Shown here piece after piece: positions 2,731 through 48,414 of a stretch of DNA of 49,770 bases. The position numbers and the translations under genes are program-made. A model generated the notes under the pieces. That model had not been told where the DNA came from, did no database searches, and was given only the letters and a program-made list of their open reading frames with translations. How positions within the stretch are numbered: the first letter of the stretch is position 1; every line of letters starts with the position of its first letter. Where the stretch lies: positions 1 through 49,770 of IMG/VR virus record IMGVR_UViG_3300030116_003951. The stretch is one strand, 5' to 3'. The DNA comes from a virus.

Positions 2731-2790
2731 AACACCAATAAGAATAAGTAAACCTGCTAAAATAGCTTTAACAATACAAATAGGACACAT
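2710..2790 (-). CDS. 26-aa single-pass membrane peptide with CPxC motif
   Basis: Predicted product MCPICIVKAILAGLLILIGV followed by KKKGSN. The ATG at 2790 overlaps the stop of the endolysin gene (TAATG), the translational-coupling arrangement used throughout this block. The sequence has an N-terminal CPIC, one hydrophobic stretch of about 15 residues and a basic tail, a plausible N-out or N-in membrane microprotein. Its last codons lie inside the terminator stem. Its position after an endolysin suggests a lysis accessory such as a pinholin-like or regulatory peptide, but this is inference. It could also be a chance ORF, although composition and coupling argue against that. Confidence 0.45.
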   Translation of the reverse strand: MCPICIVKAILAGLLILIGVKKKGSN

Positions 2791-3251
2791 TATAAATGTA
2801 TATATTTAGTTCTACCGTTTACTTTCTTAGCTATAGTTAACTTCTTTCTATTAGGCCTATGTGTTACGTAGCTAACATGAACCCAGTTAGGATTTTTGTC
2901 ATCACCAAACTCCCATATTAACTGGTCAAAGTCTAAATGATCTTTTATAAACTCATACATTTCAGCGTTTGTACATCTACCAAAAGTATCGTCTATATCC
3001 ATAGCTTGACCTTTCATGTGCTGTGAGTTTTTACTTCCACCAATAGCTGTGTTAACAGGTTCTCCTCTAAAAAAACTATTTATTTTTATTGGTCCTCCAA
3101 CGTAAGCTCTAAGCGGTTCAAATATATTTTCGGCTACTTCTTTCATACACTTTAATTGATCTTCGTTAGGTGTATTATCTAAATCTAATCTTTCGCCTGT
3201 TCTGCTGTAAGTTCCTTCTTTCCAACTTACGTGTTTACTTATTTTTTCCAT
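2790..3251 (-). CDS. Endolysin: M15-family peptidase (peptidoglycan D-Ala/L-Ala carboxy- or endopeptidase)
   Basis: 153 aa. Zinc ligands of the M15 (VanY/M15A) fold are visible: SQHMKGQAMDID gives H78 and D85, and WVHVS gives H125, with the catalytic Glu in LIWEFG (E114). Length and motif spacing match single-domain M15A phage endolysins, which cut peptide bridges of peptidoglycan. There is no signal peptide, so release would depend on a holin; a 3TM-type holin is encoded far upstream at 41967-42353. It is followed without a gap by the 26-aa membrane peptide and preceded by a small fibre-like gene. An alternative role as a virion peptidase is possible. Confidence 0.88.
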   Translation of the reverse strand: MEKISKHVSWKEGTYSRTGERLDLDNTPNEDQLKCMKEVAENIFEPLRAYVGGPIKINSFFRGEPVNTAIGGSKNSQHMKGQAMDIDDTFGRCTNAEMYEFIKDHLDFDQLIWEFGDDKNPNWVHVSYVTHRPNRKKLTIAKKVNGRTKYIHL

Positions 3252-20450: not shown

Positions 20451-23400
20451 TTATGTTACATTTAAAAATTTAGGATACAAAGTAATAGCTCCGTTAGGTG
20501 TGGCATCACCATAGTCTTTTGCTATATAACTAACAGTAACTGTTACTTGTGTTGCACTATCTTGAACAGCTGTAGCTCTTAAAGCATAACTCCAGTCACT
20601 AGTAAATTCAATTTTATCATATTGAGCAAACGCTGCACCCGTATCTACTATATCAGCAGATATTGTTATTCTGTATTTATAATTAGTACCACCAATATTA
20701 TACCCAGCGCTATCAATAGCTGTTACATTCGCACCACTTGCTATTCTACTAGCAGTTAAAATCGTACCACTATAACTTTTTTGACCTCTTTCATAACCTA
20801 CATCTGACACTCCCATACCTACTTTTAATCCATCACCATTATACTCGTCTAAATATATATATCTTCCACCAGCTGGAGCCAAGCTATTTGCTGGTAAGCA
20901 AACTGTATGTCCAGCTCCTCTAACATCACGTATTTGATGGCTGCTACCTGAGCCGCTATCATCAACAACAGGTTGTCTACCGTTACCTGAAGATATTGAT
21001 ATTGCTTTTCCTTCACCGGTGATTGTATACACAAAATTTATTGTGTTGTAAGTTCTATCTTTACTAAGCTGAAGTGCTTTAGGTTTTCTAAACTGAGGTA
21101 CTCTAGCTTTTGTCGTAGCAGTATTATTAGTAACTGATAAGCCAGTTATAGCGGTACCACCACTAGTGTTAACAGCGTTTACAGATCCAGTAACGTTTGT
21201 TGCTGTTTTATATGTTAATTCTTCAAACGCGTCTGGAACTCCAGCTGTACTAGTTGGAACATCTAAGTGTGTAAGGCCGCCACCTGTTGTTTCTATTAGT
21301 TTTACAGAATATGTTTTATCTTCATTTAAAGTAGAATGAAAAACAGAAAACTGTTTTATCAACTCATCTTTTGTAAAGTCAACAGTGTTAGTAGAAGCAC
21401 CGGCTTGCCAAGCATCTGTTGCAAAATTATAATATAAGTCAACCGTACCACTACCACTCTTTCTACCCAATTGGAAAGATGTTCTACCAGGAGCCGAAGC
21501 TTGTATTGTTATAAGTTGCTGTTGAGCTATAACAGAGGTTAATATATCTTTTCTATAAGAAACATTTTTAATAGCTGCAACAACATTATCAGAATAACCA
21601 CTTTGTGTTATTTGCTCTGTAGCAAGTCTAATTGTAAATTGATTATCAAAATCTGCAAAACTTCCAGTAGTAGGTAGTTGATCGTCTTCACCAGCCAGCG
21701 GTGTAAAGAAAAACTCTACAACAGCAACGGTGCATTGATTAGCAGAATTTAATGTAGGTGTTATTTTTACATCAAACTGTTTTCCAAGCTCTCTATTTGT
21801 AGAGGTGTAATCTACGTCTACAGGATTTGGGTTTCTTGGATCTAAAGGTTTAAAATAATAACCATTAGAAGCTGTAAACGTGTATTTACCCCAAAGCGTA
21901 GTTTGACCTTTATTTAAATTACCAGTATGAACATACGCATCGTGACCTTTTAGTGGTCTTTTACTATCAGTTGTTCTATTAATATCATTAACATTAGCTA
22001 TAGTTAAATTAAAATTACCTACCGTGCCATCATGCTGAACTAAAGCTTCAAACGGTGTTTTTAGTAGTGTGTTTAAACTAACTGTCTGCTTGTCTAAATC
22101 TACAGTGTAAACAGTATCTTGTGTTATTGTAAAGTTATCATAGTAAACCTTAACTTTAATAGTATTAGTTGGTTCACCAGCAACACCATTGTTAAACAAC
22201 TCTATCTTGTTTACACCAGCTGTAGCGTTCCAGCTTCCTCCACCTTGTTTTTCTATTGTTCTAAAGGTTGTATCTGTTATTGTAACATCTCCTCCAATAG
22301 TAAAATCAAAGGCGTCTAAATTTATACCAGTGTACTCATCATTTACAATATTTGTTATTGTAAGCTCTTTAAAACTTGTGTTGTTAGTACCAACGGTTGT
22401 TCCATCTGTGTGGCTTGATTGATTAGAAACATTTTCAGTAGTCCAACCACTATCAGCTGTAGCATCGTAAGTACCACCACCAGTAGCTGTGTTGTTTGTA
22501 ACGTTAAACGTAAATTTTCGTTGACTTCTATTAGTTCCAGAATCTACAACTGTTTCTTGAGTAGCCATACCAATACCTTGAACACTAAATTCTTTTTCGT
22601 CTAAATTTGAAAGTAAAGTAGTAGCGCCTGTAAAAGTACTAAACCATTTACCTTCTTTTTCTTTAAACTCTATGTTTTCAGTTGACTGTAGGTTTGTGGT
22701 ACTACTATCTATATACCAACCTTGTTTTTGTGTTAGATTATAATACTCTCTATCACCTATATTAAATGTATTACCAGCAGCATCTGTTACTGAAGGATTT
22801 ACAAAAGCGGTTATTCTAGACTGAGTACCCTCGTAGTTAACGGTTCCAAAGCTTTTAACAGAACCAGGATCGTCATTAAACAACAATTTAATACTAGGAT
22901 AATACTGTATACCATAAAACATATTATTAGGATTTGGATTACCCAAATGGTTAATTGTTTGGTGATGCTTCCATATTTGACCAAACTTAAACGTGTAATA
23001 CTCGTTGTTTAAGCTAATACCGTTTTCAGGATCAAAAGATTTAAAACTTACCCAGCCTTTAATATCTTCGTTCCAAGAAACAGTAGTTCCACTTGGCCTC
23101 ATCTGACTTCTGTAAGCTCTTGTTCCAAACGTTAAGTTATATTCATTTTTCTTACCATCGTAAGTACCAAGTATATCTGTAACACCTTGAAGATTGTCAT
23201 TAAAGTAATCTTTCATTCCAACATCAGATATAACGCTTATGCTTGATTGTCCTTGTAAACCTAAAACCTGCCCTCTCATTTGATCACACCAGTAAGCACC
23301 AAAAGGTGTTTTAGCAAAACTCATTGGATCAGTGGATATACCATACTCACCTTGTATAGGTGTTGCAGCTCCTAAAACTCTAGCAGTCGCAGTAACGTTA

Positions 23401-26400
23401 GAGTTACCATCAGCGTTAAATAATGCGTCTTTGTTTGTTAATATGATTAAAACTTTATCTTCACAAAAGGCTACTGTATCAGTGTTTCTAGCATGCATTT
23501 TTTGAATGCTACCATAACCAGGATTTAAATCTTTGGTTATAGGTTCTGCTGCTATAAATTGATTTAAGTTGTTAACGCCACTTATAGAGTTGAATATACC
23601 AGACCATATAAAACCATTTTTTCTATGTTCTTCTTTATAAGGCTCTGCTACAGAAGCTGAAGCTTTCACACCGTTATCTAGTTGTGGTGCATTAAAATCA
23701 TCTCTAATTCTATCTGACTCAACACCGTTACCCCAAGCCCAACAGTTCCACCAGCCTAAGTAATATGTTTGGTGATGTGTTGCATTTTTAGTAACAATTG
23801 AAAAATCATGTTTACGAGGGTTATCACCCATAAATAACTGTATTGTAGTAGCACCAACAGGAACGTTACCACTTACATTTACTTTAGAAGTTATTTTAGA
23901 ACCATCGTATCTATATATAGTTATAGAGCTTTCATTTCCAGTTATACTTGGTAAAGCTGGATCAAACTCAGGTATAACAGCTGTTAAAGCTGGTGTAAAA
24001 GTTATGTTGTTATCAGATAAACTTGTTACGGTGTGTGTTGTGCCTCCATGCTCAAAAGTAGCTTTGTATGGCACTATCATTTCGTTTGTTTCTTTTGAAA
24101 ACTTAACGGGTATTGCAGCGGAAGCCTCGTAATAAATATCTAGTTCAACATTTTCTTTAGGTTCTGTTTCCCATATAGCTGGATTGTTACTTGAAAATTC
24201 TTGAGCACCTTCACTATCCGTAACTATAAAAGGCTCCATAAACTCTATAGTACTATCGTTTCTTGGGTTTGCTGAAAAACCATCTATAGTAGGATGTGTC
24301 ATTCCATTGAATATACCACTACTATGAGAACATGTAGCGGATTGTGCGGTTCTAACTGCTAACGTACCATCTGGTTGCATCCAATAAGAGTTACCACCAA
24401 CTAAACCACTAGCAATAGGACAAAAATAGTGTGAGTCACCATTAGCGTCTACTCTGTTAGGACTAAACCACTCATCATGTGTACCTAGCCCAGTAACATC
24501 TACGTTATCAAGATCTCTGTAACCTCTTAATTTAACCCTAATACCAAATCTTTGATTACCAGAGTTAGAATCACTATTACTCCAGTTCCAGTCACTATCG
24601 CCAGTACCACCAACAAGTGGACTACTAGCACTACCACTTTCACCTCCAAAGTAATTCATACCAGCACCAAGGTTTGTATATAATCTACCTCTTACTTGTA
24701 CTATTTCCCATATAGTTTGGGCTGGATCTTCAGCAAATCTAATTAAACCTCCTATGTTTGTTAATCTAGTATACGGAACTTGGAATATATTTCCTGCATA
24801 ACCAACAGGATTAGAATCTTGATGAAAGTTTGCAAAAGATATATCAAAGTGAGCGTTACCCGCGTGATCAAAACAACCTCCCTTGCAAAAACCAGGAGTA
24901 GGGTAATAACTATCGTCTTGATAATCTTCATCATCATAAAACCACTGATTACCTCTGTCATACTGATCTTTATAGTTGGTGTGTTTCCAGTCACTCCAAA
25001 AGCTTTCACCACTACCGTTGTGATCATTTAAAAATCCAACCCTCATAGTATCTACAACAGCGTACTCTAAATCTGTTGTAAAGTTATTTAAAAGTTTGTT
25101 TTGTAATATTAAGTCTTTGTATATCTTTACAAAAAATCTACCATCAAACTCCGGTTTATGTTTAAGTGTATTTTGTAAAATTTCTAACTTTAGGTCGTTG
25201 TCTAAGTTCAAACCAACAAACTGATTACAGTCGTTTTCAAACTTACCAGCTATAGTTATTTTAACCCAAGTACCACTTGATGGTACTGCTATAGAAACAA
25301 CATCATAAAAATTACTTAATAGAGGTGTACCACCAGATGTACCACCTATTCTTAGTTCTAAATCTTCTTTTAAATCAGGTTCTACAACAGAACTAAACGT
25401 AGCTAAGAAATCATCTTTTCTTACAAGTATAAAAGATTTGTCTGGCTCTGGTGCTCCCGCGGCTGCATAATCCACATGAGCCATACCATAAGACTTTCTA
25501 TATTGTTTTATAAAAGTTGGTGGTTCTTCAGCTATAGATATAACTTTATATCTAGCTTGATCTATTACAGCAATATCACTGTCGTGCTGTTTTTTAAGTA
25601 TTAAGTATGTGTCTTCAGTTATTTTATTTCTTTCTGCAGAAGGAAAACTAATCCAAACGTTACCATCTTCAGCATCGTAAAAACGATCCATAGCTAAGTT
25701 ATAGTATTCGTTAGATGTTTCTTTAATGTAATATTTAAAAGACTCAGCCCAGAAAGGAGGATCTGATCTTAATGTTGCTGTTATTTGATTAGCTGTAGTA
25801 GAAGCTTTTTTAGGTATTGTTACAGAACCACCGCTTTTAGGAACTTGCACAGGTGTTTCTCTACCATACTTATCACGAAAAACTACACCAACCTGGTAGG
25901 TTCTCATAGTTTTACAAGACAAAGTAGGTGTCTCTATACCATCAGGGTTTATAGAGTTATCTATTAACTCGCTAGCGTAGTTTACATCTATTTCTAAACT
26001 TCTAGAAACAGAACCAGCTGATATATTATAGTTCTGTAAATAGTTACCATAAACTAATCTATTACCAGTTATTTCTTGAGCTCTAGCTCTTCTAGGTACA
26101 TTATCATAAGGTCTTAACAATTGGTTAGAAGGGACTATAGCGTGTATAATTTCTGATGTTATTTCATATTCACCTCTATTGTAAAAGTTAATATTCCAAG
26201 CTGGCCAAAAAGGAGGACCATCTTTCATTGTTAATTCTTTTATAGTATAAACCTCAGCCTTGTTTGTTTCTTTATAAAGTAGTTCAACACCAATAACATC
26301 TTCAGGTGTATTAGAAGGTTCTTGAAAATATCTTGTTAATTTTAGCGATCTAACATTATTACGCATACCTAAATTATAACCTTTTTTAGGTAAATAATCA

Positions 26401-27953
26401 AAATCACCAGGTAAAAAAGCTATTTCAGACCAAGGAGCATAACAAGAGTATTCACCATCAGTGTATTTCCATCTGTAGGAAAATCTAGGAAACTTATACT
26501 CAAATAAAGGTTTTTCTTGTTCTAATCTAACTAACCAGTCTTCAGGTATATTACCAAGTGTAGCATCAACAGACTGTATTTCTATAGTGTAAGGACCTAC
26601 TGAACCACCATTGTTTGGATAACCACCAGGACCATTTATAACAACAGCTCTAACTAAAGCATCTTCAGTTGGAAAAGCATCTGGACTAGCATTTAAATCG
26701 TTTAAGAAAAGCAATACATCACCAGGTCTAAAATCTACCGCTGTGTTAAAAGTTACTGTTAATTGGTGGCCAACTTCATGAGGTTGGTTATTAGCTGTGT
26801 CGTAAAAAACACTAGTAGCGTTAGAGTCGTTAAATTGAGTAAATATACTGTTTGGAGTTGTAGAACCGGATGGTACTCTAGTAGCGGCTGTAGTTGACAT
26901 TTCAAGGTCAAGCGGCATTTCAGGGTTTTTCTTTATAACCGTTATGTGTTGTTCTCTACATGGTATAGGTAATTGTTCCGTATGGTTAACCGCTAGTCTA
27001 AGCTGAAAGTCTTTATCTATAACTAGCCTAGTGTGAAAGTGAGCGTTGTTATTCTGTATGTTAACAGCTGGATTATCACTAGGAACACCAGCAGCAAAAC
27101 CATTTATACCACCATTAGGCATATAGTGTATACCTCCAGTACCAGCTATAGATCTTTCTATGTTTATTTTTTTAGGCTCAGTTGAGTCATCAGTCCAAAA
27201 TATCATACCATCTAAATGATTTATAGCAGGTATTTTATTGTTGTGACTAAAGTTTAATACCCTATCAGCTCTTAAATCGTATGTATCATTAGCTGTGCAA
27301 CGTAAGTTTTCACCGTATTTATTAGTGGTTAATATTAAATGCCATCTGTTGTTAGCGGCATCAATTTGAATATCTGTTATAAATACCTCATCATTAGTTA
27401 TACAAGTGTAAGTAGCACCATTAGCAACGTTGTTACCACGCCAAGTTATAGTACCACCAGTTGTATTTGTAAAAGTACCAACAACTTGCATACCGATTCT
27501 AGCACCAGTAATATTCATAGTGTTATCACCGTTACTACTAACATTTAATCTACCCGGTGCAGATGGTGCTCCCTCTTGTGTTGCTCTTACTTTAAATATA
27601 TCTACAAAAACATATTTAAAAGAATCGTTTACAGTGTCATACTCTATAATTAAATCTTTGTATATATTAGGAGCATAATTATATCTTTCCCAACCATAAG
27701 CAGCAACAAAGTAATATATTAAATCTTTTTCAGGAACATCTAAAACACCCACTGTTGTAGTGTACAGCTCATCAACAGAGCCAACAGCTTTTTTAGCATT
27801 ACCTAAAACAACCTGAGCAGCACCTATATTAGAACCATCAGATGTAGATATTTGTATGTTCTTTGCATCTCTGTATTGACCATTAGGAACAAGTCTTTCA
27901 TCAAGATCTTTGTTCATCTTGGACTCAGAGAACGTTCTCTTCATTTCTGCCAT
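20451..27953 (-). CDS. Giant tail-hub/stabilisation ('muzzle'-type) protein with C-terminal adhesin-like domains
   Basis: 2500 aa. The N-terminus has the signature MNKDLDERLVPNGQYRDAKN (from residue 14) and ISTSDGSNIGAAQ, seen in the tail stabilisation/nozzle proteins of crAss-like and marine podoviruses. The pattern of large beta domains continues to about residue 1780 (e.g. KNEYNLTFG, WNEDIKGWVSFKSFDPENG, IWKHHQ). The last 700 residues are Thr/Asn/Gly-rich beta segments resembling adhesin or spike domains. It would form the distal tail tube and contact the host surface. The neighbours upstream are two ring/tube-adaptor proteins. At 2500 aa it is unusually long for the family. The family call rests on the N-terminal signature; the domain boundary is estimated by eye. 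Confidence 0.75.
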   Translation of the reverse strand: MAEMKRTFSESKMNKDLDERLVPNGQYRDAKNIQISTSDGSNIGAAQVVLGNAKKAVGSVDELYTTTVGVLDVPEKDLIYYFVAAYGWERYNYAPNIYKDLIIEYDTVNDSFKYVFVDIFKVRATQEGAPSAPGRLNVSSNGDNTMNITGARIGMQVVGTFTNTTGGTITWRGNNVANGATYTCITNDEVFITDIQIDAANNRWHLILTTNKYGENLRCTANDTYDLRADRVLNFSHNNKIPAINHLDGMIFWTDDSTEPKKINIERSIAGTGGIHYMPNGGINGFAAGVPSDNPAVNIQNNNAHFHTRLVIDKDFQLRLAVNHTEQLPIPCREQHITVIKKNPEMPLDLEMSTTAATRVPSGSTTPNSIFTQFNDSNATSVFYDTANNQPHEVGHQLTVTFNTAVDFRPGDVLLFLNDLNASPDAFPTEDALVRAVVINGPGGYPNNGGSVGPYTIEIQSVDATLGNIPEDWLVRLEQEKPLFEYKFPRFSYRWKYTDGEYSCYAPWSEIAFLPGDFDYLPKKGYNLGMRNNVRSLKLTRYFQEPSNTPEDVIGVELLYKETNKAEVYTIKELTMKDGPPFWPAWNINFYNRGEYEITSEIIHAIVPSNQLLRPYDNVPRRARAQEITGNRLVYGNYLQNYNISAGSVSRSLEIDVNYASELIDNSINPDGIETPTLSCKTMRTYQVGVVFRDKYGRETPVQVPKSGGSVTIPKKASTTANQITATLRSDPPFWAESFKYYIKETSNEYYNLAMDRFYDAEDGNVWISFPSAERNKITEDTYLILKKQHDSDIAVIDQARYKVISIAEEPPTFIKQYRKSYGMAHVDYAAAGAPEPDKSFILVRKDDFLATFSSVVEPDLKEDLELRIGGTSGGTPLLSNFYDVVSIAVPSSGTWVKITIAGKFENDCNQFVGLNLDNDLKLEILQNTLKHKPEFDGRFFVKIYKDLILQNKLLNNFTTDLEYAVVDTMRVGFLNDHNGSGESFWSDWKHTNYKDQYDRGNQWFYDDEDYQDDSYYPTPGFCKGGCFDHAGNAHFDISFANFHQDSNPVGYAGNIFQVPYTRLTNIGGLIRFAEDPAQTIWEIVQVRGRLYTNLGAGMNYFGGESGSASSPLVGGTGDSDWNWSNSDSNSGNQRFGIRVKLRGYRDLDNVDVTGLGTHDEWFSPNRVDANGDSHYFCPIASGLVGGNSYWMQPDGTLAVRTAQSATCSHSSGIFNGMTHPTIDGFSANPRNDSTIEFMEPFIVTDSEGAQEFSSNNPAIWETEPKENVELDIYYEASAAIPVKFSKETNEMIVPYKATFEHGGTTHTVTSLSDNNITFTPALTAVIPEFDPALPSITGNESSITIYRYDGSKITSKVNVSGNVPVGATTIQLFMGDNPRKHDFSIVTKNATHHQTYYLGWWNCWAWGNGVESDRIRDDFNAPQLDNGVKASASVAEPYKEEHRKNGFIWSGIFNSISGVNNLNQFIAAEPITKDLNPGYGSIQKMHARNTDTVAFCEDKVLIILTNKDALFNADGNSNVTATARVLGAATPIQGEYGISTDPMSFAKTPFGAYWCDQMRGQVLGLQGQSSISVISDVGMKDYFNDNLQGVTDILGTYDGKKNEYNLTFGTRAYRSQMRPSGTTVSWNEDIKGWVSFKSFDPENGISLNNEYYTFKFGQIWKHHQTINHLGNPNPNNMFYGIQYYPSIKLLFNDDPGSVKSFGTVNYEGTQSRITAFVNPSVTDAAGNTFNIGDREYYNLTQKQGWYIDSSTTNLQSTENIEFKEKEGKWFSTFTGATTLLSNLDEKEFSVQGIGMATQETVVDSGTNRSQRKFTFNVTNNTATGGGTYDATADSGWTTENVSNQSSHTDGTTVGTNNTSFKELTITNIVNDEYTGINLDAFDFTIGGDVTITDTTFRTIEKQGGGSWNATAGVNKIELFNNGVAGEPTNTIKVKVYYDNFTITQDTVYTVDLDKQTVSLNTLLKTPFEALVQHDGTVGNFNLTIANVNDINRTTDSKRPLKGHDAYVHTGNLNKGQTTLWGKYTFTASNGYYFKPLDPRNPNPVDVDYTSTNRELGKQFDVKITPTLNSANQCTVAVVEFFFTPLAGEDDQLPTTGSFADFDNQFTIRLATEQITQSGYSDNVVAAIKNVSYRKDILTSVIAQQQLITIQASAPGRTSFQLGRKSGSGTVDLYYNFATDAWQAGASTNTVDFTKDELIKQFSVFHSTLNEDKTYSVKLIETTGGGLTHLDVPTSTAGVPDAFEELTYKTATNVTGSVNAVNTSGGTAITGLSVTNNTATTKARVPQFRKPKALQLSKDRTYNTINFVYTITGEGKAISISSGNGRQPVVDDSGSGSSHQIRDVRGAGHTVCLPANSLAPAGGRYIYLDEYNGDGLKVGMGVSDVGYERGQKSYSGTILTASRIASGANVTAIDSAGYNIGGTNYKYRITISADIVDTGAAFAQYDKIEFTSDWSYALRATAVQDSATQVTVTVSYIAKDYGDATPNGAITLYPKFLNVT

Positions 27954-30533: not shown

Positions 30534-31997
30534 TTAGTTTAACAAGAAGAAGTTGTTAGCTCCTTGTACAACTAAACATCTTTCAGATAGGAAGTGCATC
30601 TCCATCGCGTCTAAATCAGAAGTAGTCGCTCCAACTGAACCAGTAGTCCAAGTTTTGAATCGTCTGTTATCTGTTTGAGAAGCTCTATATCTTACGTGTA
30701 AGAATGGACGCTTAAGGTTTTTACCTAATTGCTCATCATACACAGATGATACACCTGCAGGAATCATTACCCCTCTGATGTTGTTAACAGCATCATTAAG
30801 ACCACCTCTTGTACCTTTATCATTAAGGTATTTGAAGTCAGACTTATAGAAGTCGTAAGAACCTCTTCGGAAGCCAGAGAATCCTAAGTTAAGTGCCATA
30901 TCCTCAGAGTTGTTAAATACACCGTAAGATGTACCACCAGCTCCGTAAGAGTTCATAGCAGCTAACATATCATCAATAGCTAAAGCAGTAGTTCTATCAA
31001 CAAACAACATGTTTTCCTCAATAGCACCGTTTTTATCAAGCTCAGCTAACATTAAGTCAAACTCAGCTAAATCAGCTAAAGGAACACCTGTAATACCAGA
31101 AGTTTGATTACCTCTTGTAGTTAACGCAGAGAATAAACCTTCACTACCAGTAATTGTACCAGCAGCACCAGCTTGAGCAACACCAGAAACAGAAGGATTA
31201 GCAGTAATAACCTGAGCAGCATCTTGAGCTTCTAACATTGTCATCTCTAAGTAGTCAGTAAATCTCTGTCTAGTGTCACCAGCAGCTTTCAAGTACCATA
31301 AGTAACCTGATTGACCATCTTCACCAGAAACTTCAACCCAACCAATAGCAGAAGCATCAGAACCAGAAACGTGGTACTGATCTTTGATAATGATAGGCTT
31401 GTTTTTTCTAGATTTGAACTGTGGCTCGTTAGATAAACCTCTACCAGTTGCACCTTTAACATATTCAGAACCGAATACTAGTACAGTAAGGTCGTTGTTA
31501 CCAATAGCAGTAGCATTCATGTTTGCAGCAGCACCACCAGCCATAGTAGCGTAAGGTTTAACAGTGATCTGAGCGTAAGCAGCAGCAGTAGGGTCAACGT
31601 TGATACAGTAAGCCCTAACAGTAGCGTTAGCATCAGATATTAATAACATATCACCTGGACGAATACCGTGATTAACACCGATAGGATTACCATCAACATC
31701 GTTAGCGATAGTAATAACATCATTAGCTCTCGTAGCAGTATAAGATAGGTGTAATCTACCTTGCTCAGACCAAACAACTTGGTCAGAAGTCATAGATTCT
31801 TCAGCGCCTACTTGAGAAAGAAAACCTGCAATAGTTCTGTTACCGAACACTTCAGCTTCTTTTTCCATTAGGTCTGGTAAATATTGTTGAGCCCAACCAT
31901 CGCTTGCACCTAAAGTAGCAAAATCAATGTAGTTTTGAGTCAACGCGTGTTTAATTGGCGCTGGTGTATAACCAGCAGCCGGAACGCCTGTAATCAT
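30534..31997 (-). CDS. Major capsid protein
   Basis: 487 aa. Position fixes the call: it follows terminase, portal and an acidic scaffold-like protein and precedes connector genes. The length is typical for HK97-fold capsid proteins of crAss-like and related podoviruses. Sequence is Ala/Gly-rich with few cysteines (about one), with an N-terminal helix region (LPDLMEKEAEVFGNRTIAGFL) and a conserved-looking C-terminal part (RRFKTWTTGSVGATTSDLDA, LSERCLVVQGANNFF). Its codon choice looks less AT-biased than its neighbours (for example GCA, ACC, GTA mixes, more C-ending codons), fitting high expression, and a terminator follows. No cleavage site for maturation can be named. Confidence 0.82.
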   Translation of the reverse strand: MITGVPAAGYTPAPIKHALTQNYIDFATLGASDGWAQQYLPDLMEKEAEVFGNRTIAGFLSQVGAEESMTSDQVVWSEQGRLHLSYTATRANDVITIANDVDGNPIGVNHGIRPGDMLLISDANATVRAYCINVDPTAAAYAQITVKPYATMAGGAAANMNATAIGNNDLTVLVFGSEYVKGATGRGLSNEPQFKSRKNKPIIIKDQYHVSGSDASAIGWVEVSGEDGQSGYLWYLKAAGDTRQRFTDYLEMTMLEAQDAAQVITANPSVSGVAQAGAAGTITGSEGLFSALTTRGNQTSGITGVPLADLAEFDLMLAELDKNGAIEENMLFVDRTTALAIDDMLAAMNSYGAGGTSYGVFNNSEDMALNLGFSGFRRGSYDFYKSDFKYLNDKGTRGGLNDAVNNIRGVMIPAGVSSVYDEQLGKNLKRPFLHVRYRASQTDNRRFKTWTTGSVGATTSDLDAMEMHFLSERCLVVQGANNFFLLN

Positions 31998-35652: not shown

Positions 35653-37869
35653 TTATCGTTTAATTATTCTTGAATTCGTTCCTCTATTACTATACTTAGC
35701 AATATTAATATTTAATGCTTTATTTTCTTTTGTTGGATTTGGTTTGTATAAGTTTTTATTACAAGCCATTATTGCTAAACCACTACTAATCGTGGCATCA
35801 AACTTTGTCCTTTTATTTATATCAAACCTAGCCCAATCATTTAAAGTACTATTAAAGTACATATTACCATGAGAACCAGTTTCTTTTATACCAACGTGAT
35901 CTTGTATATACATTTCGATAGCAGCAGCGTGAGCTTGCTTTATATCTTCACTTGAGTTTGGTATACCACCTATTTCTTTTTCAGCTGAAGAAAGTTTATT
36001 CCAAAGCTTGTCAGGTCTATTCATACTAAAACCTCTATAACCTCTACGTCTTAAATAGTATAAAAGTCTAGGTTTGTTGTTCTCTGCAAGCATTGGCATT
36101 CCGTAAAAAACTAGAGCGCATAATACATCTTCAAAAAATATATCAGCTGTTTGAGGTCTAGCTATGTACTCTAAAAAGAACTGGCTAATAGGTGCTTCCT
36201 CCATTGAAAACTTTGTTAATCCGTGTAAAGATCCTTTCGATCCTTTTCCATCAACTGTCCCTGATATATCGTAACTATCACAACCAAAAGCACCAATATG
36301 TTCATTTCCAGGGTATCGTATTCCGTTTTTTAATATTACGTTGTTTTGTTGTTGAGGTTTTGGAACCCAGCTTATATTAAATCTACCTTTTGGATCTGGA
36401 TAAAATATAACTTGAGAATCCTTAACACCGTTAACCCATTGAAAGTTACCTCTAGTTAAACCTAAAGATCTTCCTAGTTCTTCGTTATAATCTATCTGTT
36501 CGTATATTTTTACTAAGTTAAATATACTGTTATTAGCCTCGTCTCTAAACGCGTGCTCTTCAGTTCTTGGAAACTGTCTGTAAAACTCATTTAACGCGTC
36601 TTGATCGTTTTTTAAACCATCAGCTTCGTTCTGCCAATGATCTATTACACCTACATCTATTAATTCGCCGTCTGGGGCGAACACATCCCTGTCAGGCGTA
36701 GTAAATACAGGAACTCCGTGCTCGTCAATAAATCCTTCATAGTTCCATTCCATTGGGATAAACAAAGAGTATAAACCAGATTTTGTCTGACCATTTCTAT
36801 TTCTTTGTGTGACATCGGATGCTCTATATAATTTTTTAAAATTGTCTCCACCTTTATCTAACGCGTTTGATGTCGAGCCCATCATACATTTACCTATAAT
36901 TCTACTACCTAATCGTAAACATGTTTTGGTTACTCGCCAGTTATTTAATATATTATCAGGTCTTTCCCATTTACCACTTTCATCGTGTACTAGTAAATTT
37001 AGTTTTTCACCATCATAACTATTATCACCAGTGTTTTTCCAGTCTATAGTAGTATCTAATCCTTCTAGCTCTTCTAATTGCTCGTTTGAAGTTATTTTTT
37101 TTCTTGTAAACTTACTAGCAGGAACTCTATAAGCTAGCTCAGTTTTAGGACGATCCATACCATCTTGAATAGGTTTAAAGAAAAAAGGGTAGTTAATACT
37201 AATAGGCACCACTTTGTCTGTAAACATTTTTTTAGCATCCGCACCTGTTTTAGAAAGTATACCATATCTACTATCACTTGATATTGTAGCTAAGTTAACT
37301 GTTTCAGCTGAACTCATAAACGAAAAACCACTACGTCTATTTTTAAGATAACACATACCATAACATCTTTTATCTGCTTTACAAGCTTCCCAGAATATAT
37401 AAAATAATCTATTAGCTTCTCTAAAATCTGGCGCACCTACATCTATTTTACTCCATTGTAAATACATGTAGTGTGTTCCTGTTATGTATGTTGGTTTATC
37501 GTTATTAACAAACCAAAAACCTTCTTCTCTACGTTTAAACTCTTCGTCTATATAATCGTACCACTGTTCTTTTTGCTCTTCAGGATAGTTTCTCCAATCG
37601 AATATGTTTTTTAAACGAGATAATTCTTTTGGATAATCAATTTTAACCCACTTGTTTAGCTTGTGTGCTCGCAGTTGCACTGGCTGTTTTGGCAACGCAA
37701 TGCGCAAATTTTGTATCTCAAGTATTTCACCAATTGTACCATTTTTTGATATAACGACAATATCATGTTCTTTATTGTATCCATATTTCCATTTTTTGCC
37801 ACGATTTAAACGTGTGATTGTTGTTTTCTTTACAGGTTCTACAACCTTAACTAAATTTTGCTCGTACAT
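35653..37869 (-). CDS. terL: Terminase large subunit
   Basis: 738 aa. ATPase part: a Walker A-like KNRRSGFSF near residues 173-182 (the usual GKS/T is replaced by a Ser-Gly-Phe-Ser form) and a Walker B NLLVHDESGKW with D-E near 294-296. Nuclease part: acidic clusters AFGCDSYDISG (D near 531), DIFFEDVL (near 580) and FDATISSGLAI (near 690), as in RNase H-like packaging nucleases. It drives DNA packaging and cuts the concatemer. The start overlaps the previous stop region (TAAGTAATG context) and the portal gene follows. The degenerate P-loop is also seen in other crAss-like terminases, as far as I recall. Confidence 0.85.
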   Translation of the reverse strand: MYEQNLVKVVEPVKKTTITRLNRGKKWKYGYNKEHDIVVISKNGTIGEILEIQNLRIALPKQPVQLRAHKLNKWVKIDYPKELSRLKNIFDWRNYPEEQKEQWYDYIDEEFKRREEGFWFVNNDKPTYITGTHYMYLQWSKIDVGAPDFREANRLFYIFWEACKADKRCYGMCYLKNRRSGFSFMSSAETVNLATISSDSRYGILSKTGADAKKMFTDKVVPISINYPFFFKPIQDGMDRPKTELAYRVPASKFTRKKITSNEQLEELEGLDTTIDWKNTGDNSYDGEKLNLLVHDESGKWERPDNILNNWRVTKTCLRLGSRIIGKCMMGSTSNALDKGGDNFKKLYRASDVTQRNRNGQTKSGLYSLFIPMEWNYEGFIDEHGVPVFTTPDRDVFAPDGELIDVGVIDHWQNEADGLKNDQDALNEFYRQFPRTEEHAFRDEANNSIFNLVKIYEQIDYNEELGRSLGLTRGNFQWVNGVKDSQVIFYPDPKGRFNISWVPKPQQQNNVILKNGIRYPGNEHIGAFGCDSYDISGTVDGKGSKGSLHGLTKFSMEEAPISQFFLEYIARPQTADIFFEDVLCALVFYGMPMLAENNKPRLLYYLRRRGYRGFSMNRPDKLWNKLSSAEKEIGGIPNSSEDIKQAHAAAIEMYIQDHVGIKETGSHGNMYFNSTLNDWARFDINKRTKFDATISSGLAIMACNKNLYKPNPTKENKALNINIAKYSNRGTNSRIIKR

Positions 37870-38147
37870 TACTTAGATCTGCCTTCTGCGAATCCTTTAA
37901 AGACTTTTTTCTTTGTCTCTTCAGGTGTTTTTCCCTCAAGCAAGTTTTCTTCTTCTTGGATTCTGTTAAGTATTTCAAATGCGTCAAATATAGCGAGTTT
38001 TTTAGTTGCCGCTGCATTTTTTAATCTATCAGCTGAAACATCATCTTCTGTATTAGTGATAATTTTTTCTCTAGCTACATTAATAAGTTCTTCAACCGCT
38101 TTGTGCCCAGCTTGGATTATAAGTTTCTTCGTTTCCTTGATATTCAT
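37869..38147 (-). CDS. Small protein before TerL; candidate terminase small subunit
   Basis: 92 aa, helical and charged. The segment SADRLKNAAATKKLAIFDAFEILNRI has the look of a conserved phage protein that often sits directly upstream of terL. Small size, helices and position suggest a small terminase or a TerL partner, but no helix-turn-helix is obvious. It ends exactly where the TerL gene starts and its own start lies 56 bases inside the preceding gene, an unusually long overlap; no alternative internal Met exists to shorten it. Confidence 0.6.
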   Translation of the reverse strand: MNIKETKKLIIQAGHKAVEELINVAREKIITNTEDDVSADRLKNAAATKKLAIFDAFEILNRIQEEENLLEGKTPEETKKKVFKGFAEGRSK

Positions 38148-38682
38148 ATTTAATTGTAATAAATTGTGTCATAACTCTATATAACCTTTCACCATCAACA
38201 ACAAATTCCCACTCACTTCCAGGCATAAAACCTACAAGTTCATTTTTGTTATAAGAACCATCTGTATACTTAATTACACCTATAAGTTTTCTTTCGTTGT
38301 CAGTATCAAAGTTATCTATACTTTTTAAAGGTTTTACAAAACAATATCCTTTCGGCGCTAACCATTTATTGTTTCTTTTATAAAGGTAAACTTGATCTAT
38401 ACCAGCAAAATACTTGTTTTCATCAAAATAACTTTTACTGTTTTTTTCTTCACCTTTAATATTATACCATCTTCTAAAAATGTTATGATGTACTAAAACT
38501 GTATCACCTTTTTTTATATTTGTTTCACCTATTATTGGTGTAGATAAAACTACAGCTTCTTTGTTTATATAGTTGTAGTTTTGTATTTCAGTGTTTAGTA
38601 TCAACTCTGAGTCACCAACTTTTTTAACATTGTTATATCTACTTCCTTTAGGTGTTACAACAAAGTTGTAAATGCTTTTCAT
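38092..38682 (-). CDS. Beta-rich protein, distant GroES-like candidate
   Basis: 196 aa. An N-terminal region (YNFVVTPKGSRYNN) is followed by KEAVVLSTPIIGETNIKKGD and TVLVHHNIFRRWYN, then YFDENKYFAGIDQVYLYKRN. A strand pattern with KKGDTVLVHHN and later VYLYK recalls the Cpn10 beta barrel (compare GDIVLF...EYLIL), and this phage also encodes a clear GroES elsewhere. The resemblance is weak and by eye only. Other options: terminase accessory or an unrelated beta-barrel protein. Coupled to the previous gene by TAATG overlap. Confidence 0.5.
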   Translation of the reverse strand: MKSIYNFVVTPKGSRYNNVKKVGDSELILNTEIQNYNYINKEAVVLSTPIIGETNIKKGDTVLVHHNIFRRWYNIKGEEKNSKSYFDENKYFAGIDQVYLYKRNNKWLAPKGYCFVKPLKSIDNFDTDNERKLIGVIKYTDGSYNKNELVGFMPGSEWEFVVDGERLYRVMTQFITIKYEYQGNEETYNPSWAQSG

Positions 38683-41379: not shown

Positions 41380-41963
41380 TATACTCCGAAATAACAGATT
41401 ATACCTCCATTAGCATCAGCTGTAGGGGTAACTACTAACCATCTACCATATATAGTTAATCCTTTTGGAAACACAGCATTAGTAGTTGCTATACCACCAA
41501 CTCCTTGTCCTAATGGATCTTGAAATGTCATTGATGTTCCGTTTGGTAGTGCCGCAGGTCTACTGAGCGTAACGGTTGTGCCACTCACAGCTTTAACATA
41601 TATTGGAGCTACACCACTAACAAAATCTTTATAATAAGGAAAGTTTGCATGACCTGTTATTTTTTGACCTGGTCTAATTGCTGCGTTTGCTCCTGTAAGA
41701 GTTATAGTACTCGTAACAGTATTACCATTACCCGCAGTTTGAGTAGCATCACCAGTAGCGTGAGCAACGGCAGTACTAATATACATAGAACCTGAGCTTT
41801 CAGGAGTTGGTTTTTGTTCAGCTATTAATGTTGTTAAAATGTTATCAGCTAAAAACTGTATAGCCGTGATAACCATTCCTTCTGGTGGTCTAATTGCTGC
41901 GTTTGTATCTGTATAAACGCTTCCCATAGATCCCATAGGATCGAATTTATAGTTTGTACTCAT
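41379..41963 (-). CDS. Virion structural protein candidate, 194 aa
   Basis: Beta-rich protein with MGSMGSVYTDTNAAIRPPEG at the N-terminus and ANAAIRPGQKITG plus VKAVSGTTVTLSRP in the middle, a pattern seen in small fibre and capsid-fibre proteins. No signal peptide or membrane segment. Lies between the holin gene and a run of fibre genes. Not assigned to a named family. Confidence 0.58.
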   Translation of the reverse strand: MSTNYKFDPMGSMGSVYTDTNAAIRPPEGMVITAIQFLADNILTTLIAEQKPTPESSGSMYISTAVAHATGDATQTAGNGNTVTSTITLTGANAAIRPGQKITGHANFPYYKDFVSGVAPIYVKAVSGTTVTLSRPAALPNGTSMTFQDPLGQGVGGIATTNAVFPKGLTIYGRWLVVTPTADANGGIICYFGV

Positions 41964-41966
41964 AAT

Positions 41967-42353
41967 TTATTTTTTTACTTTTTCAAGCGATCGTCCACCA
42001 AAATAGGCTCCAATCACGGTTATTAATACTAATTGTAATAAATCAGTCCACTTGTCTTCAACTTTAAATGTTATAACACCAGCATCGATAAAAACTAACA
42101 ACACGGTGCTAACAACTAAAAAAACTAAAACTAACGGACGAATATTCTTAGAAAGCCACGAATCGCTGTTCATGTCCATTTTCCAACGTTCTGTTACTTG
42201 CTTTTGCATTTCAGCTTCGTAACCCATTATCATATCTTTTATTTGCTTTTCAGCTTCAAGTTTTTCTTCTTTTGATGTGTGAAGATTATCTATAACGCCA
42301 CCAACATTTTTTATAAGATCTGCAGCTCCACTGCTTAGTATTTTACTTAACAT
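41967..42353 (-). CDS. Holin, GTA_holin_3TM-like
   Basis: 128 aa. Amphipathic N-terminal helix and a charged region (residues 26-60), then ERWKMDMNSDSWLSKNIRPL, followed by a membrane segment at about 71-90 (LVLVFLVVSTVLLVFI) and a second at about 103-121 (LLQLVLITVIGAYFGG). The SWLSKNxRPL box plus IGAYFGGRSLEK matches the 3TM holin family found in gene-transfer agents and phages. It would permeabilise the inner membrane to free the M15 endolysin at 2790-3251, which is some 39 kb downstream on the same strand. The family call is good; the partner is inferred. Confidence 0.82.
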   Translation of the reverse strand: MLSKILSSGAADLIKNVGGVIDNLHTSKEEKLEAEKQIKDMIMGYEAEMQKQVTERWKMDMNSDSWLSKNIRPLVLVFLVVSTVLLVFIDAGVITFKVEDKWTDLLQLVLITVIGAYFGGRSLEKVKK

Positions 42354-45113: not shown

Positions 45114-45371
45114 TTATTCTACTAAAACAACATCTTGACTTCGTATAACATAGTATAATTCATTTTTCCAAGCTATACCGTGACCTGCGTGTTTGTCATA
45201 GTAAATAATATCATCTATATTTAAACCTTCAACAAGATTTCCTATAGATATAATTTTTCCTTTTAAGTACCTATTGTCAACATCTGTCTCTTCAGTCATT
45301 ATAAGACCAGCGACTTTTTTAGGTTCTACCTTTTCTTTTTCTATTATAATATAGTTGTTAACTGCCTTCAT
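45114..45371 (-). CDS. groES: Co-chaperonin GroES (Cpn10)
   Basis: 85 aa, shorter than the usual 95-100. Recognisable Cpn10 features: NYIIIEKEKVEPKKVAG start, mobile loop AGLIMTEETDVDNRYLKG where LIM takes the place of the GroEL-contacting IVL, GKIISIG, and VEGLNIDDIIYYDKHAGHGI near the end, then YYVIRSQDVVLVE. It would cap the phage GroEL ring. It overlaps the groEL end by 14 bases and follows it, the reverse of the normal groES-groEL order. The length lost is mainly in the roof and mobile-loop area. Confidence 0.9.
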   Translation of the reverse strand: MKAVNNYIIIEKEKVEPKKVAGLIMTEETDVDNRYLKGKIISIGNLVEGLNIDDIIYYDKHAGHGIAWKNELYYVIRSQDVVLVE

Positions 45372-46929
45372 CTACTCTTATGTTTGAAATTACACAGTCT
45401 GCAGATATAATTGTAGAAACAACACTTACTGCATTTTTAAGTGCTGATTTAGTTACAAGGACTGGATCTATAATACCTTCTTTTACCATATCGACCTCTT
45501 CACCTGTAACTACATTTACACCAACTCCATTTTTATTTGGATAACCTAATGTTTCAAAGCCAGCGTTATTCATAATAGTTTCAAAAGGAGATTTAATGGC
45601 TTTAAGTAAAGCGTTTTCTCCTTCATCAAAAGGTTCTATTTCTTGAGCAGCATTAAGAAGGGCTATACCGCCGCCCGGCACAATACCCTCCTTCAACGCG
45701 GCTTTTGTTGCATAAATAGCATCTTCTACTCTATCTTTCTTTTCTTTTAACTCAACTTTAGAGTTTGCACCTACCATAACTATACCTACAGAACCTGAAA
45801 GCATAGCTAATCTATTTTCTAGTTTCTTTTTTATAAAACCATTTTTTTCTGATTTTATAAGTGATTTAACTTCTTTTATTCTGTTATCTAGCTCTTTTGG
45901 AGTTTCTTCAATAGTTATTACTGTTGATGTATTATCTGTTACAGAAAACTCAGCTTGACCTAAACAATCTAAATCTATAAGATCTAAATCATCACCAAGA
46001 TCTTCATTAATAACAGTAGCTCCAGTTAAAATAGCAAGATCTTCACAGGTGTCTTTTTTAGTAGGACCAAAGCCTGGTAAGTCAATAATATTTACTTTAA
46101 TATTACCTTTAACTTTGTTCATCATTAAAGCTGCTTTTACTTGTTGATCAACAGGTGCAACTATCAATAATGATTTTTTGTTTTTTATTACGTGTTCTAA
46201 AACCTGTTGTATTTTTCTTATTGTCTTTATTTCTGAAAAAACAATTAATACTAAAGGATTTTCTAGTTCACATTTTTGTTTTTCGGTGTTAGTGATAAAG
46301 TGTTGAGAAGTTAAACCACACTGATCTAACTGAACACCGTCAACTAAATCAACATAGGTTTTATCACTTTCAGAACCTTCCATTAAAACAACACCGTCTT
46401 TTCCAACTTTTTCATAAGCTTCTGCTATAATCTTTCCTAGCTCGTTATCGTTGTTACAACTGATCGAACTTACGGATCTCAGCATATCACCCTCGATCTT
46501 GACAGAAATCTTATCTAAATAATCGTTTACTTTATATTTAGCAGATTCTAAACCATTTTTAACGTTTCTTATAGGTTCACCGTTTTTAATACTTCTTTCT
46601 GCTTCCTTTAATAATGATTCAGCTAGTACGGTAGCTGTTGTAGTACCGTCACCAGCTTCTTTCACTGTATTTCTAGCAGCTTCTTTTAGCAATGTTGCTC
46701 CCATATTTTCAACCGGGTCTTTTAAGACTACGCTTTCTGCTACGGTTACACCGTCTTTTGTAATAACCGGGTTGCCACGAGCATCTTCATATATTACACA
46801 TTTACCAGATGCGCCTAACGTGGATTTAACTGCCTTTGCTAGCTTTTCTACGCCAGCTGTTACTTTACTTTTAGCGTCATTGCCAAAGTTTAATTCTTTG
46901 ACAATTTCGCTATGCAAATTGTATTCCAT
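45358..46929 (-). CDS. groEL: Chaperonin GroEL (Cpn60)
   Basis: 523 aa. Folds proteins in an ATP-driven double ring. Nucleotide site is intact: TKDGVTVAESV (D59), GDGTTTATV (D94) and RVEDAIYATKAALKEGIVPG, holding the equivalents of E. coli D52, D87 and D398. Apical domain is altered: by-eye alignment places G for Y199, H for Y203, Q for L234 and K for L259, residues that normally bind substrates and GroES. The C-terminus ends in SNIRVDEGS with no Gly-Gly-Met tail. Such changes suit a chaperonin specialised for a few phage proteins. It sits in the structural block next to its own groES, with the giant virion proteins as possible clients. Family certain; specialisation inferred. Confidence 0.95.
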   Translation of the reverse strand: MEYNLHSEIVKELNFGNDAKSKVTAGVEKLAKAVKSTLGASGKCVIYEDARGNPVITKDGVTVAESVVLKDPVENMGATLLKEAARNTVKEAGDGTTTATVLAESLLKEAERSIKNGEPIRNVKNGLESAKYKVNDYLDKISVKIEGDMLRSVSSISCNNDNELGKIIAEAYEKVGKDGVVLMEGSESDKTYVDLVDGVQLDQCGLTSQHFITNTEKQKCELENPLVLIVFSEIKTIRKIQQVLEHVIKNKKSLLIVAPVDQQVKAALMMNKVKGNIKVNIIDLPGFGPTKKDTCEDLAILTGATVINEDLGDDLDLIDLDCLGQAEFSVTDNTSTVITIEETPKELDNRIKEVKSLIKSEKNGFIKKKLENRLAMLSGSVGIVMVGANSKVELKEKKDRVEDAIYATKAALKEGIVPGGGIALLNAAQEIEPFDEGENALLKAIKSPFETIMNNAGFETLGYPNKNGVGVNVVTGEEVDMVKEGIIDPVLVTKSALKNAVSVVSTIISADCVISNIRVDEGS

Positions 46930-47292: not shown

Positions 47293-48414
47293 CTATGCTT
47301 CTAATATTTTCTTTTTTAAATGATCTGGTAAATTCTTCTGATTACCGACTAAAGGTTTTTTTGCAGGAGATTTTTGCATTTTGTTATGTTTTACGTTACC
47401 GTATAATTTAACAGCAGATTTTGCTTTTTTACCTGCAGCTGCAACTTTTCCAACTCCTGGTACCATTGTAGCTGCTTTTTTAGCTGTAGCTTTTTTCACA
47501 GCTTTTTTAGCGCCAGCAGCAACAGCACTTCCAACACCTGGCACCATTTTAGCAGCTTTACCTGCAGCTTTTGCAGCTTTACTAGCAACTTGTTTAGCTG
47601 GTGATTTACCGTACTTTTTAGCTGGTGATTTACCATACTTTTTAGCTGGAGATTTGCCATGATCCATTTTAGCTGGAGATTTACCACCGTCAGCTTTACT
47701 AGCGTGTACAGCTTTACGTTGAGCATCGGATTTATATCCTTTCATAGGAGATTTACCATACTTTTTAGCAGGTGATTTTTTCTTACCTGTACCAGCCATA
47801 CCTGCTTTTTTAGCAGCTTTAAATTCTTTTTTAATTCTACGCTTATCTTTACGTGTTATTTTGTTTCCATCTTCATCGTACTTAGTATAATCACTATACT
47901 TTTCCATATCCTTATCGGTTGGCTTTACAGGCTTGTCAGCATTTTTGATCTTCTTCTTTTTATCTTTATCCATTTTCTTCATACCCATACCTGCACCCAT
48001 CAACATACCAGCAGGACCTAGAGCCATACGACCAACATCACCAAGACCAAACTTACCATCAGATCCTGTTACCATACCTTTTAAAGCTCCGCCAATCTTT
48101 TTTATAAATTTAGCAGGAGAAGCTTTAGGGTCTGCCATCTTTCCTTTCTTGCCTATATTCTTTTTAATTTTTGCTATTTGCTCTTTTGTAGCTTTGCTTT
48201 TACCAGTCTGAGCTCCATCTTTCTGCATACGTCTTGCATCTTCTGGTGTGAAACCTTCATCTATAAGTTGATCTATAGTTTTTTCACTAGCATCTGACTG
48301 CTGAAACGGAGACGATGTTGATTTTCCATCTCCCATATTTTTATAGCCATTTCTTTGAGCTTTTAACTTTCCATACAAAGAAGGGCCTTTCATTTTAAAC
48401 GGTGTATACGCCAT
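47293..48414 (-). CDS. Lys-rich, SPAK-repeat protein, histone H1-like composition
   Basis: 373 aa. About eight SP[AM]K motifs (KSPAKKYG three or more times, KSPMKG, KSPAKMDHG, ASPAKF, KSPAKKPL), many in a tandem 8-residue repeat. Two MVPGVG segments (KMVPGVGSAVAAGAKKAVKK, TMVPGVGKVAAAGKKAKS) and a Gly/Met-rich hydrophobic patch (GRMALGPAGMLMGAGMGM) alternate with lysine-rich tracts. S/T-P-K-K-like motifs bind AT-rich DNA minor groove in eukaryotic H1, so DNA binding inside the capsid is an attractive idea. No enzyme domain. Alternative: membrane-active or scaffolding role. Confidence 0.6.
   Translation of the reverse strand: MAYTPFKMKGPSLYGKLKAQRNGYKNMGDGKSTSSPFQQSDASEKTIDQLIDEGFTPEDARRMQKDGAQTGKSKATKEQIAKIKKNIGKKGKMADPKASPAKFIKKIGGALKGMVTGSDGKFGLGDVGRMALGPAGMLMGAGMGMKKMDKDKKKKIKNADKPVKPTDKDMEKYSDYTKYDEDGNKITRKDKRRIKKEFKAAKKAGMAGTGKKKSPAKKYGKSPMKGYKSDAQRKAVHASKADGGKSPAKMDHGKSPAKKYGKSPAKKYGKSPAKQVASKAAKAAGKAAKMVPGVGSAVAAGAKKAVKKATAKKAATMVPGVGKVAAAGKKAKSAVKLYGNVKHNKMQKSPAKKPLVGNQKNLPDHLKKKILEA
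47593..47776 (-). repeat. 24-bp tandem repeat encoding KSPAKKYG
   Basis: A 24-base unit (on the plus strand ttttagctggtgatttacc plus gtac or similar) recurs at about 47595-47645 with degenerate copies at 47646-47690 and another at 47740-47776. It is in frame, giving eight-residue repeats KSPAKKYG, and probably expands or contracts by slippage or recombination. Confidence 0.7.

Follow-up and report, generated by a model that had tools for sequence, protein, structure and literature searches.

A candidate phage-dedicated chaperonin system with a remodelled GroEL, a cognate GroES and a second, Cpn20-like lid-like protein in a virus that most likely infects Bacteroidota

The virus described here encodes a GroEL whose apical binding site, as judged from alignments, has been remodelled in a manner fixed across a large clade of related phage proteins. 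We estimate with a probability of about 0.6 that this GroEL belongs to a phage-dedicated folding machine, which would comprise the phage's own GroEL, a cognate GroES, a second lid-like protein, and capsid-sized virion proteins as clients. The window, i.e. the whole stretch of DNA analyzed, is the full record stretch of 49,770 bases (positions 1-49,770) of the IMG/VR virus record IMGVR_UViG_3300030116_003951.

The structural genes form a single minus-strand block that fills most of the window and includes the terminase gene:

35653-37869, minus strand: terminase large subunit, TerL (phrog_6681, 2e-177)

The relatives of this TerL come from phages of Flavobacterium, Cellulophaga, Maribacter and Tenacibaculum and from MW202828, an uncultured freshwater phage (64% identity to MW202828, 32-44% to the Cellulophaga, Flavobacterium and Tenacibaculum phages). 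Since these relatives are phages of Bacteroidota, the host of this marine virus is most likely a Bacteroidota bacterium. The sole large plus-strand gene (826-2694) encodes a class II (B12-dependent) ribonucleotide reductase of 622 aa.

The chaperonin locus consists of the following elements:

45358-46929, minus strand: groEL, a phage group I chaperonin of 523 aa (Pfam Cpn60_TCP1, 3e-59; phrog_5725, 1e-139)
45114-45371, minus strand: groES, 85 aa (Pfam Cpn10, 1e-8; phrog_3188, 1e-12)
45358-45371, minus strand: overlap of 14 bases between the groEL stop region and the groES start, groEL being first

A preliminary description of this DNA, made from the letters alone, had proposed a complete groEL-groES pair, and both genes are confirmed by the Pfam and PHROG profiles: the Cpn60 profile PF00118 spans the full length of GroEL (profile positions 1-488 of 490, 201 bits vs a cutoff of 34.3), and GroES scores 35.2 bits against the Cpn10 cutoff of 21.1. 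The position of groEL before groES and the 14-base overlap, also noted there, are exact. The window GroEL is 38-43% identical to bacterial GroELs and 70-78% identical to 80 IMG/VR relatives; the latter, the best 80 of 263 IMG/VR stretches that encode relatives, make up together with the window the sample of 81 that we refer to as the clade. In all 81 loci groES lies downstream of groEL, with an overlap of 1-20 bases in 79 and an extra ORF between the genes in 2, while groES is upstream of groEL in 73/73 bacterial loci whose flank contains groES, which bears out the remark that the order is unlike that of bacterial operons. The groEL-first order is already annotated in the elemo phages and MW202828 (isolates included), so it is a trait of the phage group and not of the window alone. 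Purifying selection acts on groEL (dN ~0.17-0.22 and dS ~1.0-1.6 between the window and its relatives), on groES and on the tandem gene described below. A promoter scan of the window gave promoter-like matches equal to those in shuffles, and a terminator scan gave 4 terminator-like matches (vs 1.5), mostly inside genes, which were not used. The ORFs found between groEL and groES in the two exceptional loci (L013, ~1897-2320; L063, ~2781-3214) are ~140 aa long, contain a WHxDTG motif and may code for an Fe/2-oxoglutarate oxygenase.

The substitutions in the apical domain were located by comparison with 80 bacterial GroELs, with residues numbered as in E. coli GroEL from Met1:

46297-46320, minus strand: apical underlying segment, with C204 (E. 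coli R197), L206 (Y199), H210 (Y203) and F211 (F204)
46198-46209, minus strand: lid/substrate site on helix H, with Q241 (E. coli L234) and L244 (L237)
46120-46137, minus strand: site on helix I, with K265 (E. coli L259) and M269/M270 (V263/V264)

At the binding positions 199, 203, 204, 234, 237, 259, 263 and 264 the window reads L-H-F-Q-L-K-M-M and E. coli Y-Y-F-L-L-L-V-V. Position 234 is Q in 81/81 members of the clade vs hydrophobic in 80/80 bacterial GroELs, and position 259 is K or R in 81/81 vs L in 80/80; H or N occupies position 203 in 78 of the 81 sequences, and position 199 is L (69) or I (12). The replacements of Y203 by H, L234 by Q and L259 by K, which the preliminary description had read from an alignment by eye, correspond to H210, Q241 and K265. 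Its replacement of Y199 by G has to be withdrawn: the G is the invariant G198, the window having one extra residue just before it, and the aligned residue is L206, L or I in the entire clade. Hydrophobic binding residues, which had been named as the finding that would speak against remodelling, are therefore present after all at Y199 only. With L237 and F204 unchanged and M/M in place of V263/V264, five of the eight classical binding positions are still non-polar, so that the window departs from the canonical E. coli-type GroEL with all eight; the clade has 5/8 in 76 of 81 sequences vs 8/8 in 79 of 80 bacteria. Since the hydrophobic positions are fewer but not all gone, the substrate range could still be a normal one. 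Other phage GroELs (phi38:1, PBS1, VP4B) also vary at the apical binding sites, and the pair of Q234 and K259 was found in none of the reference sequences compared. A remodelled site fixed throughout the clade would be in keeping with a specialised phage machine and a lid that evolved along with it.

The ATP site is intact, as had been claimed, with D52, D87, D398, D495, T30, G32 and T89-T91 kept in 81/81 sequences, and the GGM tail of canonical GroEL is indeed missing, the window protein ending in RVDEGS. The cavity wall is altered at one further place:

45826-45840, minus strand: lost cavity-wall acidic cluster, with G364, I366 and K368 (E. coli D359, D361 and E363)

Of the acidic cavity clusters 252-255 and 359-363 little is left in the clade. 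E386K and the change of D361 to I, L, F, M or V are clade-fixed and absent from the 80 bacterial GroELs; E363 is mostly K in the clade, again a state absent from the 80. In E. coli GroEL the salt-bridge partner of E386 is R197, and in the clade this residue is C, S or V where E386 is K (81/81). The opposite charges at positions 83 and 327 are reversed in 56 of 81 sequences, the window itself having K/N. We count the apical net charge (clade mean -6.7 vs -5.1) as unchanged, so the charge changes are local, and on this ground we rejected the idea that the cavity as a whole has inverted its charge, despite the loss of the acidic clusters.

The ring-ring contacts differ from those of canonical GroEL in two loops:

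45595-45672, minus strand: left ring-ring contact loop (E. coli 415-447), 7-8 residues shorter, E434 lost
45538-45582, minus strand: right ring-ring contact, with E450 in place of R452, S463/V464 lost, and loop 457-471 reduced from 13 to 8 residues

In all 81 members of the clade the left loop lacks 7-8 residues relative to most bacteria, and loop 457-471 has 7-9 residues in 81/81 vs 13. R452, which is R or K in 80/80 bacteria, gives way in most of the clade to N, E, A, H and others. From the canonical contact set (K105, A109, R452, E461, S463, V464) the window keeps E461, carries R for K105, N for A109 and E for R452, and has S463/V464 deleted. Engineered single-ring GroEL is made by mutations in this very patch (PMC5575113), and the OBP and AR9 phage chaperonins are single rings (PMC9598537). 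Considering the loss of R452, the shortening of both loops and the engineered precedent, we predict that the second ring is weakly bound or absent. Mitochondrial Hsp60 is a double ring in the crystal even though it, too, is devoid of the conserved ring-ring salt bridges (PMC5575113), so that a single-ring state is not certain from sequence.

GroES is 85-87 aa long across the 81 loci. The preliminary description had pointed to a short GroES that keeps an LIM mobile loop, and the window protein is in fact 85 aa long with LIM inside A-G-L-I-M-T (residues 21-26); the clade motif is GL[IL][LM]T, with G-L invariant and Leu at the equivalent of I25 in 81/81. The AlphaFold2 (AF2) model (pLDDT 85.9, Z 10.9 to Thermus thermophilus Cpn10, 1wnr) shows the Cpn10 fold, to which the mobile loop with its hydrophobic triplet can be added, whereas the roof beta-hairpin of canonical E. 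coli-type GroES is missing from the alignment, and in the model only ~11 residues separate strands 35-43 and 55-59, where the roof would be. A tblastn search of INPHARED with this protein gave no match, because it is short and divergent. In E. coli, GroES I25/V26/L27 contact GroEL L234, L237 and V264 (PMC3514286), so two of the three GroEL-side lid contacts are changed in the window. With L234Q and L259K in GroEL and Leu at the I25 equivalent in GroES, the two proteins probably work with each other as a private pair that would not exchange freely with host partners.

A second lid-like gene, which had escaped the preliminary description as had the altered ring-ring contacts and the absent roof loop, sits just upstream of the terminase gene:

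38092-38682, minus strand: tandem GroES-fold protein (Cpn20-like), 196 aa (phrog_13932 'co-chaperonin GroES', 2e-13)

The best PDB match of its AF2 model (pLDDT 82.5, loops lower) is chloroplast Cpn20, 7ekq_R (Foldseek 7.8e-4), onto which residues 1-180 superimpose with Z 9.3 and rmsd 4.5 over 156 aligned residues; each half also matches single co-chaperonin chains. The Z scores of 7-9 are modest, and all top rows are co-chaperonins. The model thus has two GroES folds in one chain, as Cpn20 does. Nearly all of 57 sequences have, in the long flexible loop of domain 1, a hydrophobic triplet and then N/S-T, and the loop of domain 2 has ~9 residues; because Cpn20 has a mobile loop in both domains, we use the label Cpn20-like and not Cpn20. 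Profile comparison of the tandem domains with single GroES reveals weak similarity (hhalign E 0.018); the Pfam Cpn10 cutoff is exceeded by two relatives, phi38:1 gp89 and phi18:3 gp96. The putative link to GroES rests on the fold comparison, the PHROG assignment and these relatives in phi38:1 and phi18:3, and suggests that the tandem protein may act as a second lid.

The tandem gene is present in 19/19 long contigs with a clade groEL, and 10 of 18 contigs picked by the tandem gene have groEL, the other 8 ending before the groEL position. Among freshwater and elemo-like relatives, GroEL and single GroES each occur in 11 of 12 contigs. GroEL, GroES and the tandem protein are all found in phi38:1, Panino, elemo and MW202828, and none of them in Gundel_1. 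Phage phi18:3 (L371, KC821620) possesses both lids, a single Cpn10 (31117-31338) and a tandem Cpn10 (41458-42060), and a search of it for GroEL found none. A plausible history is that the lids came first and acted on host GroEL in the manner of gp31, with a phage GroEL added later. Cellulophaga phage phi14:2 (L260), which is crass-like, has a short GroEL of 490 aa and no detectable Cpn10.

For the tandem component only, it is possible, if doubtful, that we are dealing with a protein for packaging or head completion that has taken over the GroES fold. Such a role would agree with the fact that the gene always adjoins those for TerL and portal, its place before the terminase gene being fixed, with a second domain devoid of a long mobile loop, and with a basic pI of 8.7; it does not explain why domain 1 retains its long loop and hydrophobic triplet in nearly all of the 57 sequences, why the homolog is not among the structural proteins flagged by MS/MS in phi18:3, or why the best fold match is a true co-chaperonin.

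The origin of GroEL bears on a different reading, in which the pair is ordinary accessory GroEL/GroES taken from a bacterium, supplying host-interchangeable extra folding capacity, and the substitutions are long-branch drift. In a 90-row GroEL tree the clade forms one branch (support 100, stem of 1.4 changes per column) that groups with other Bacteroidota-phage GroELs (SH-aLRT 85-90, long branches) and is not nested among those of hosts; the exact sister is unsure because of the long branches. A recent transfer from the host is not supported by this placement, which implies either an old acquisition or fast evolution. Some phage GroELs do have the expected profile of accessory proteins, since those of the Bacteroides phage DAC16 and of a 735-kb phage fall inside the Bacteroidota GroELs and have ordinary sites, and in the window the intact fold and ATP site, the five non-polar binding positions and the unchanged apical net charge would suit it as well. 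Inheritance from a single ancestor explains part of the fixation of L234Q and L259K/R, but drift is not expected to fix both in 81/81 members of a diverse clade with dN << dS, and we consider this reading rather unlikely. A lid-independent holdase with GroES as a remnant would have precedents in the chaperonins of phages EL, OBP and AR9, which work without a co-chaperonin (PMC9598537, PMC7185714); that groES adjoins groEL in 81/81 loci and is kept by purifying selection with an invariant G-L in its loop, and that the EL and PBS1 GroELs stand much further from the window GroEL (24-26% identity), makes it very unlikely.

The phage-dedicated machine that we favor requires clients that fit its cage. 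The preliminary description had put forward the 2500-aa and 3135-aa virion proteins, perhaps as substrates of a specialised folding machine; the idea of such a machine draws support from the remodelled, clade-fixed apical site, but these clients have to be rejected on size, as at 276 and 351 kDa neither protein can be accommodated whole inside the cage, whose capacity even 56 kDa slightly exceeds (PMC6318259). A likelier client is the following protein:

30534-31997, minus strand: 52-kDa virion protein encoded after portal, candidate major capsid protein and client (phrog_13704, 9e-95)

This product is a putative major capsid protein and putative GroEL client, and clients in general are likely to be capsid-sized virion proteins. 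The 2500-aa virion protein (phrog_14478; 20451-27953, minus strand) shows a weak match (2e-5, just below the cutoff) to the C-terminal domain of the crAssphage muzzle protein, PF25729.

In the proposed mechanism the phage GroEL ring would hydrolyse ATP and pair with a co-translated cognate GroES lid, while the second lid-like protein would contribute two GroES folds in one chain. L234Q, L259K and the Leu at the I25 equivalent of GroES would re-tune both the GroEL-GroES contact and the substrate site. Following the loss of ring-ring contacts, the chamber would run as single or loosely paired rings, and the roof-less lid would open up the dome, in the way of T4 gp31; the job of the whole would be the folding of capsid-sized phage virion proteins. 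By analogy to chloroplasts, which mix Cpn10 and Cpn20, a single-ring GroEL could even carry a mixed lid of GroES and the tandem protein, which we regard as a quite unlikely elaboration. Since the second tandem domain has no gripping loop, fewer than seven loops would fasten a mixed lid to the ring; in engineering work, single-ring GroEL sustained growth when paired with GroES7 concatemers in which two or three modules had been disabled (PMC5575113).

Earlier work had already described phage groELs from this general group, and the groEL-first order occurs in annotated isolates. Nishimura 2017 reported GroEL in 36 environmental genomes of the marine Flavobacteriaceae phage 'group 2' (PMC5332604), i.e. 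phages like Cellulophaga phi38:1, which belong to the same broad group as the window by TerL/portal homology; that study deals with presence and phylogeny only. In phi38:1 the order is Cpn10-ORF-groEL, and GroEL keeps Y199, L259 and a full-length left contact loop. The Flavobacterium elemo phages and Manatee Spring phage ctfjg026 (MW202828) resemble the window in the overlapping groEL-groES and in the tandem gene before TerL, but their GroELs are ~35-36% identical to that of the window, lack K259, keep Y199 and have a right loop of normal length. T4 gp31 likewise has no roof loops, its cage being enlarged for the 56-kDa capsid protein (PMC6318259), but it uses host GroEL, whereas the window co-encodes a phage GroEL along with a shorter GroES (85 aa). 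The EL, OBP and AR9 GroELs share with the window an altered lid/substrate site, yet they are ~25% identical and act without GroES, while the window clade co-encodes a conserved one; OBP and AR9 are single rings and EL turns into single rings with ATP, and for the window the ring state is hinted at by sequence. Chloroplast Cpn10 and Cpn20 combine a single- and a tandem-domain co-chaperonin in one system, as the window does, although the window protein has a long mobile loop in domain 1 only and shows no sign of common descent with Cpn20. What is probably new is the combination of the remodelled site, the lost ring-ring contacts, the roofless GroES and the Cpn20-like second lid.

Most of what has been learned about phage GroELs comes from giant phages, whose chaperonins do without a lid, and T4 adds only a lid to the host machine. 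The phage chaperonin of the window clade is compact, widespread and still has a lid, probably even two, and it carries natural replacements at the residues that were mutated in the classical studies of GroEL. With it one could test which features of a chaperonin are required for client choice, lid specificity and single-ring cycling, and comparison of the lid-only state of phi18:3 with the full set of the window clade could show why a phage replaces the host machine. Beyond the chaperonin locus, a 373-aa Lys/Ala-rich protein (47293-48414, minus strand), for which searches of Pfam and PHROG gave no match, contains eight SPAK/SPMK motifs (KSPAKKYGKSPAK repeats) and is reminiscent of histone H1 tails.
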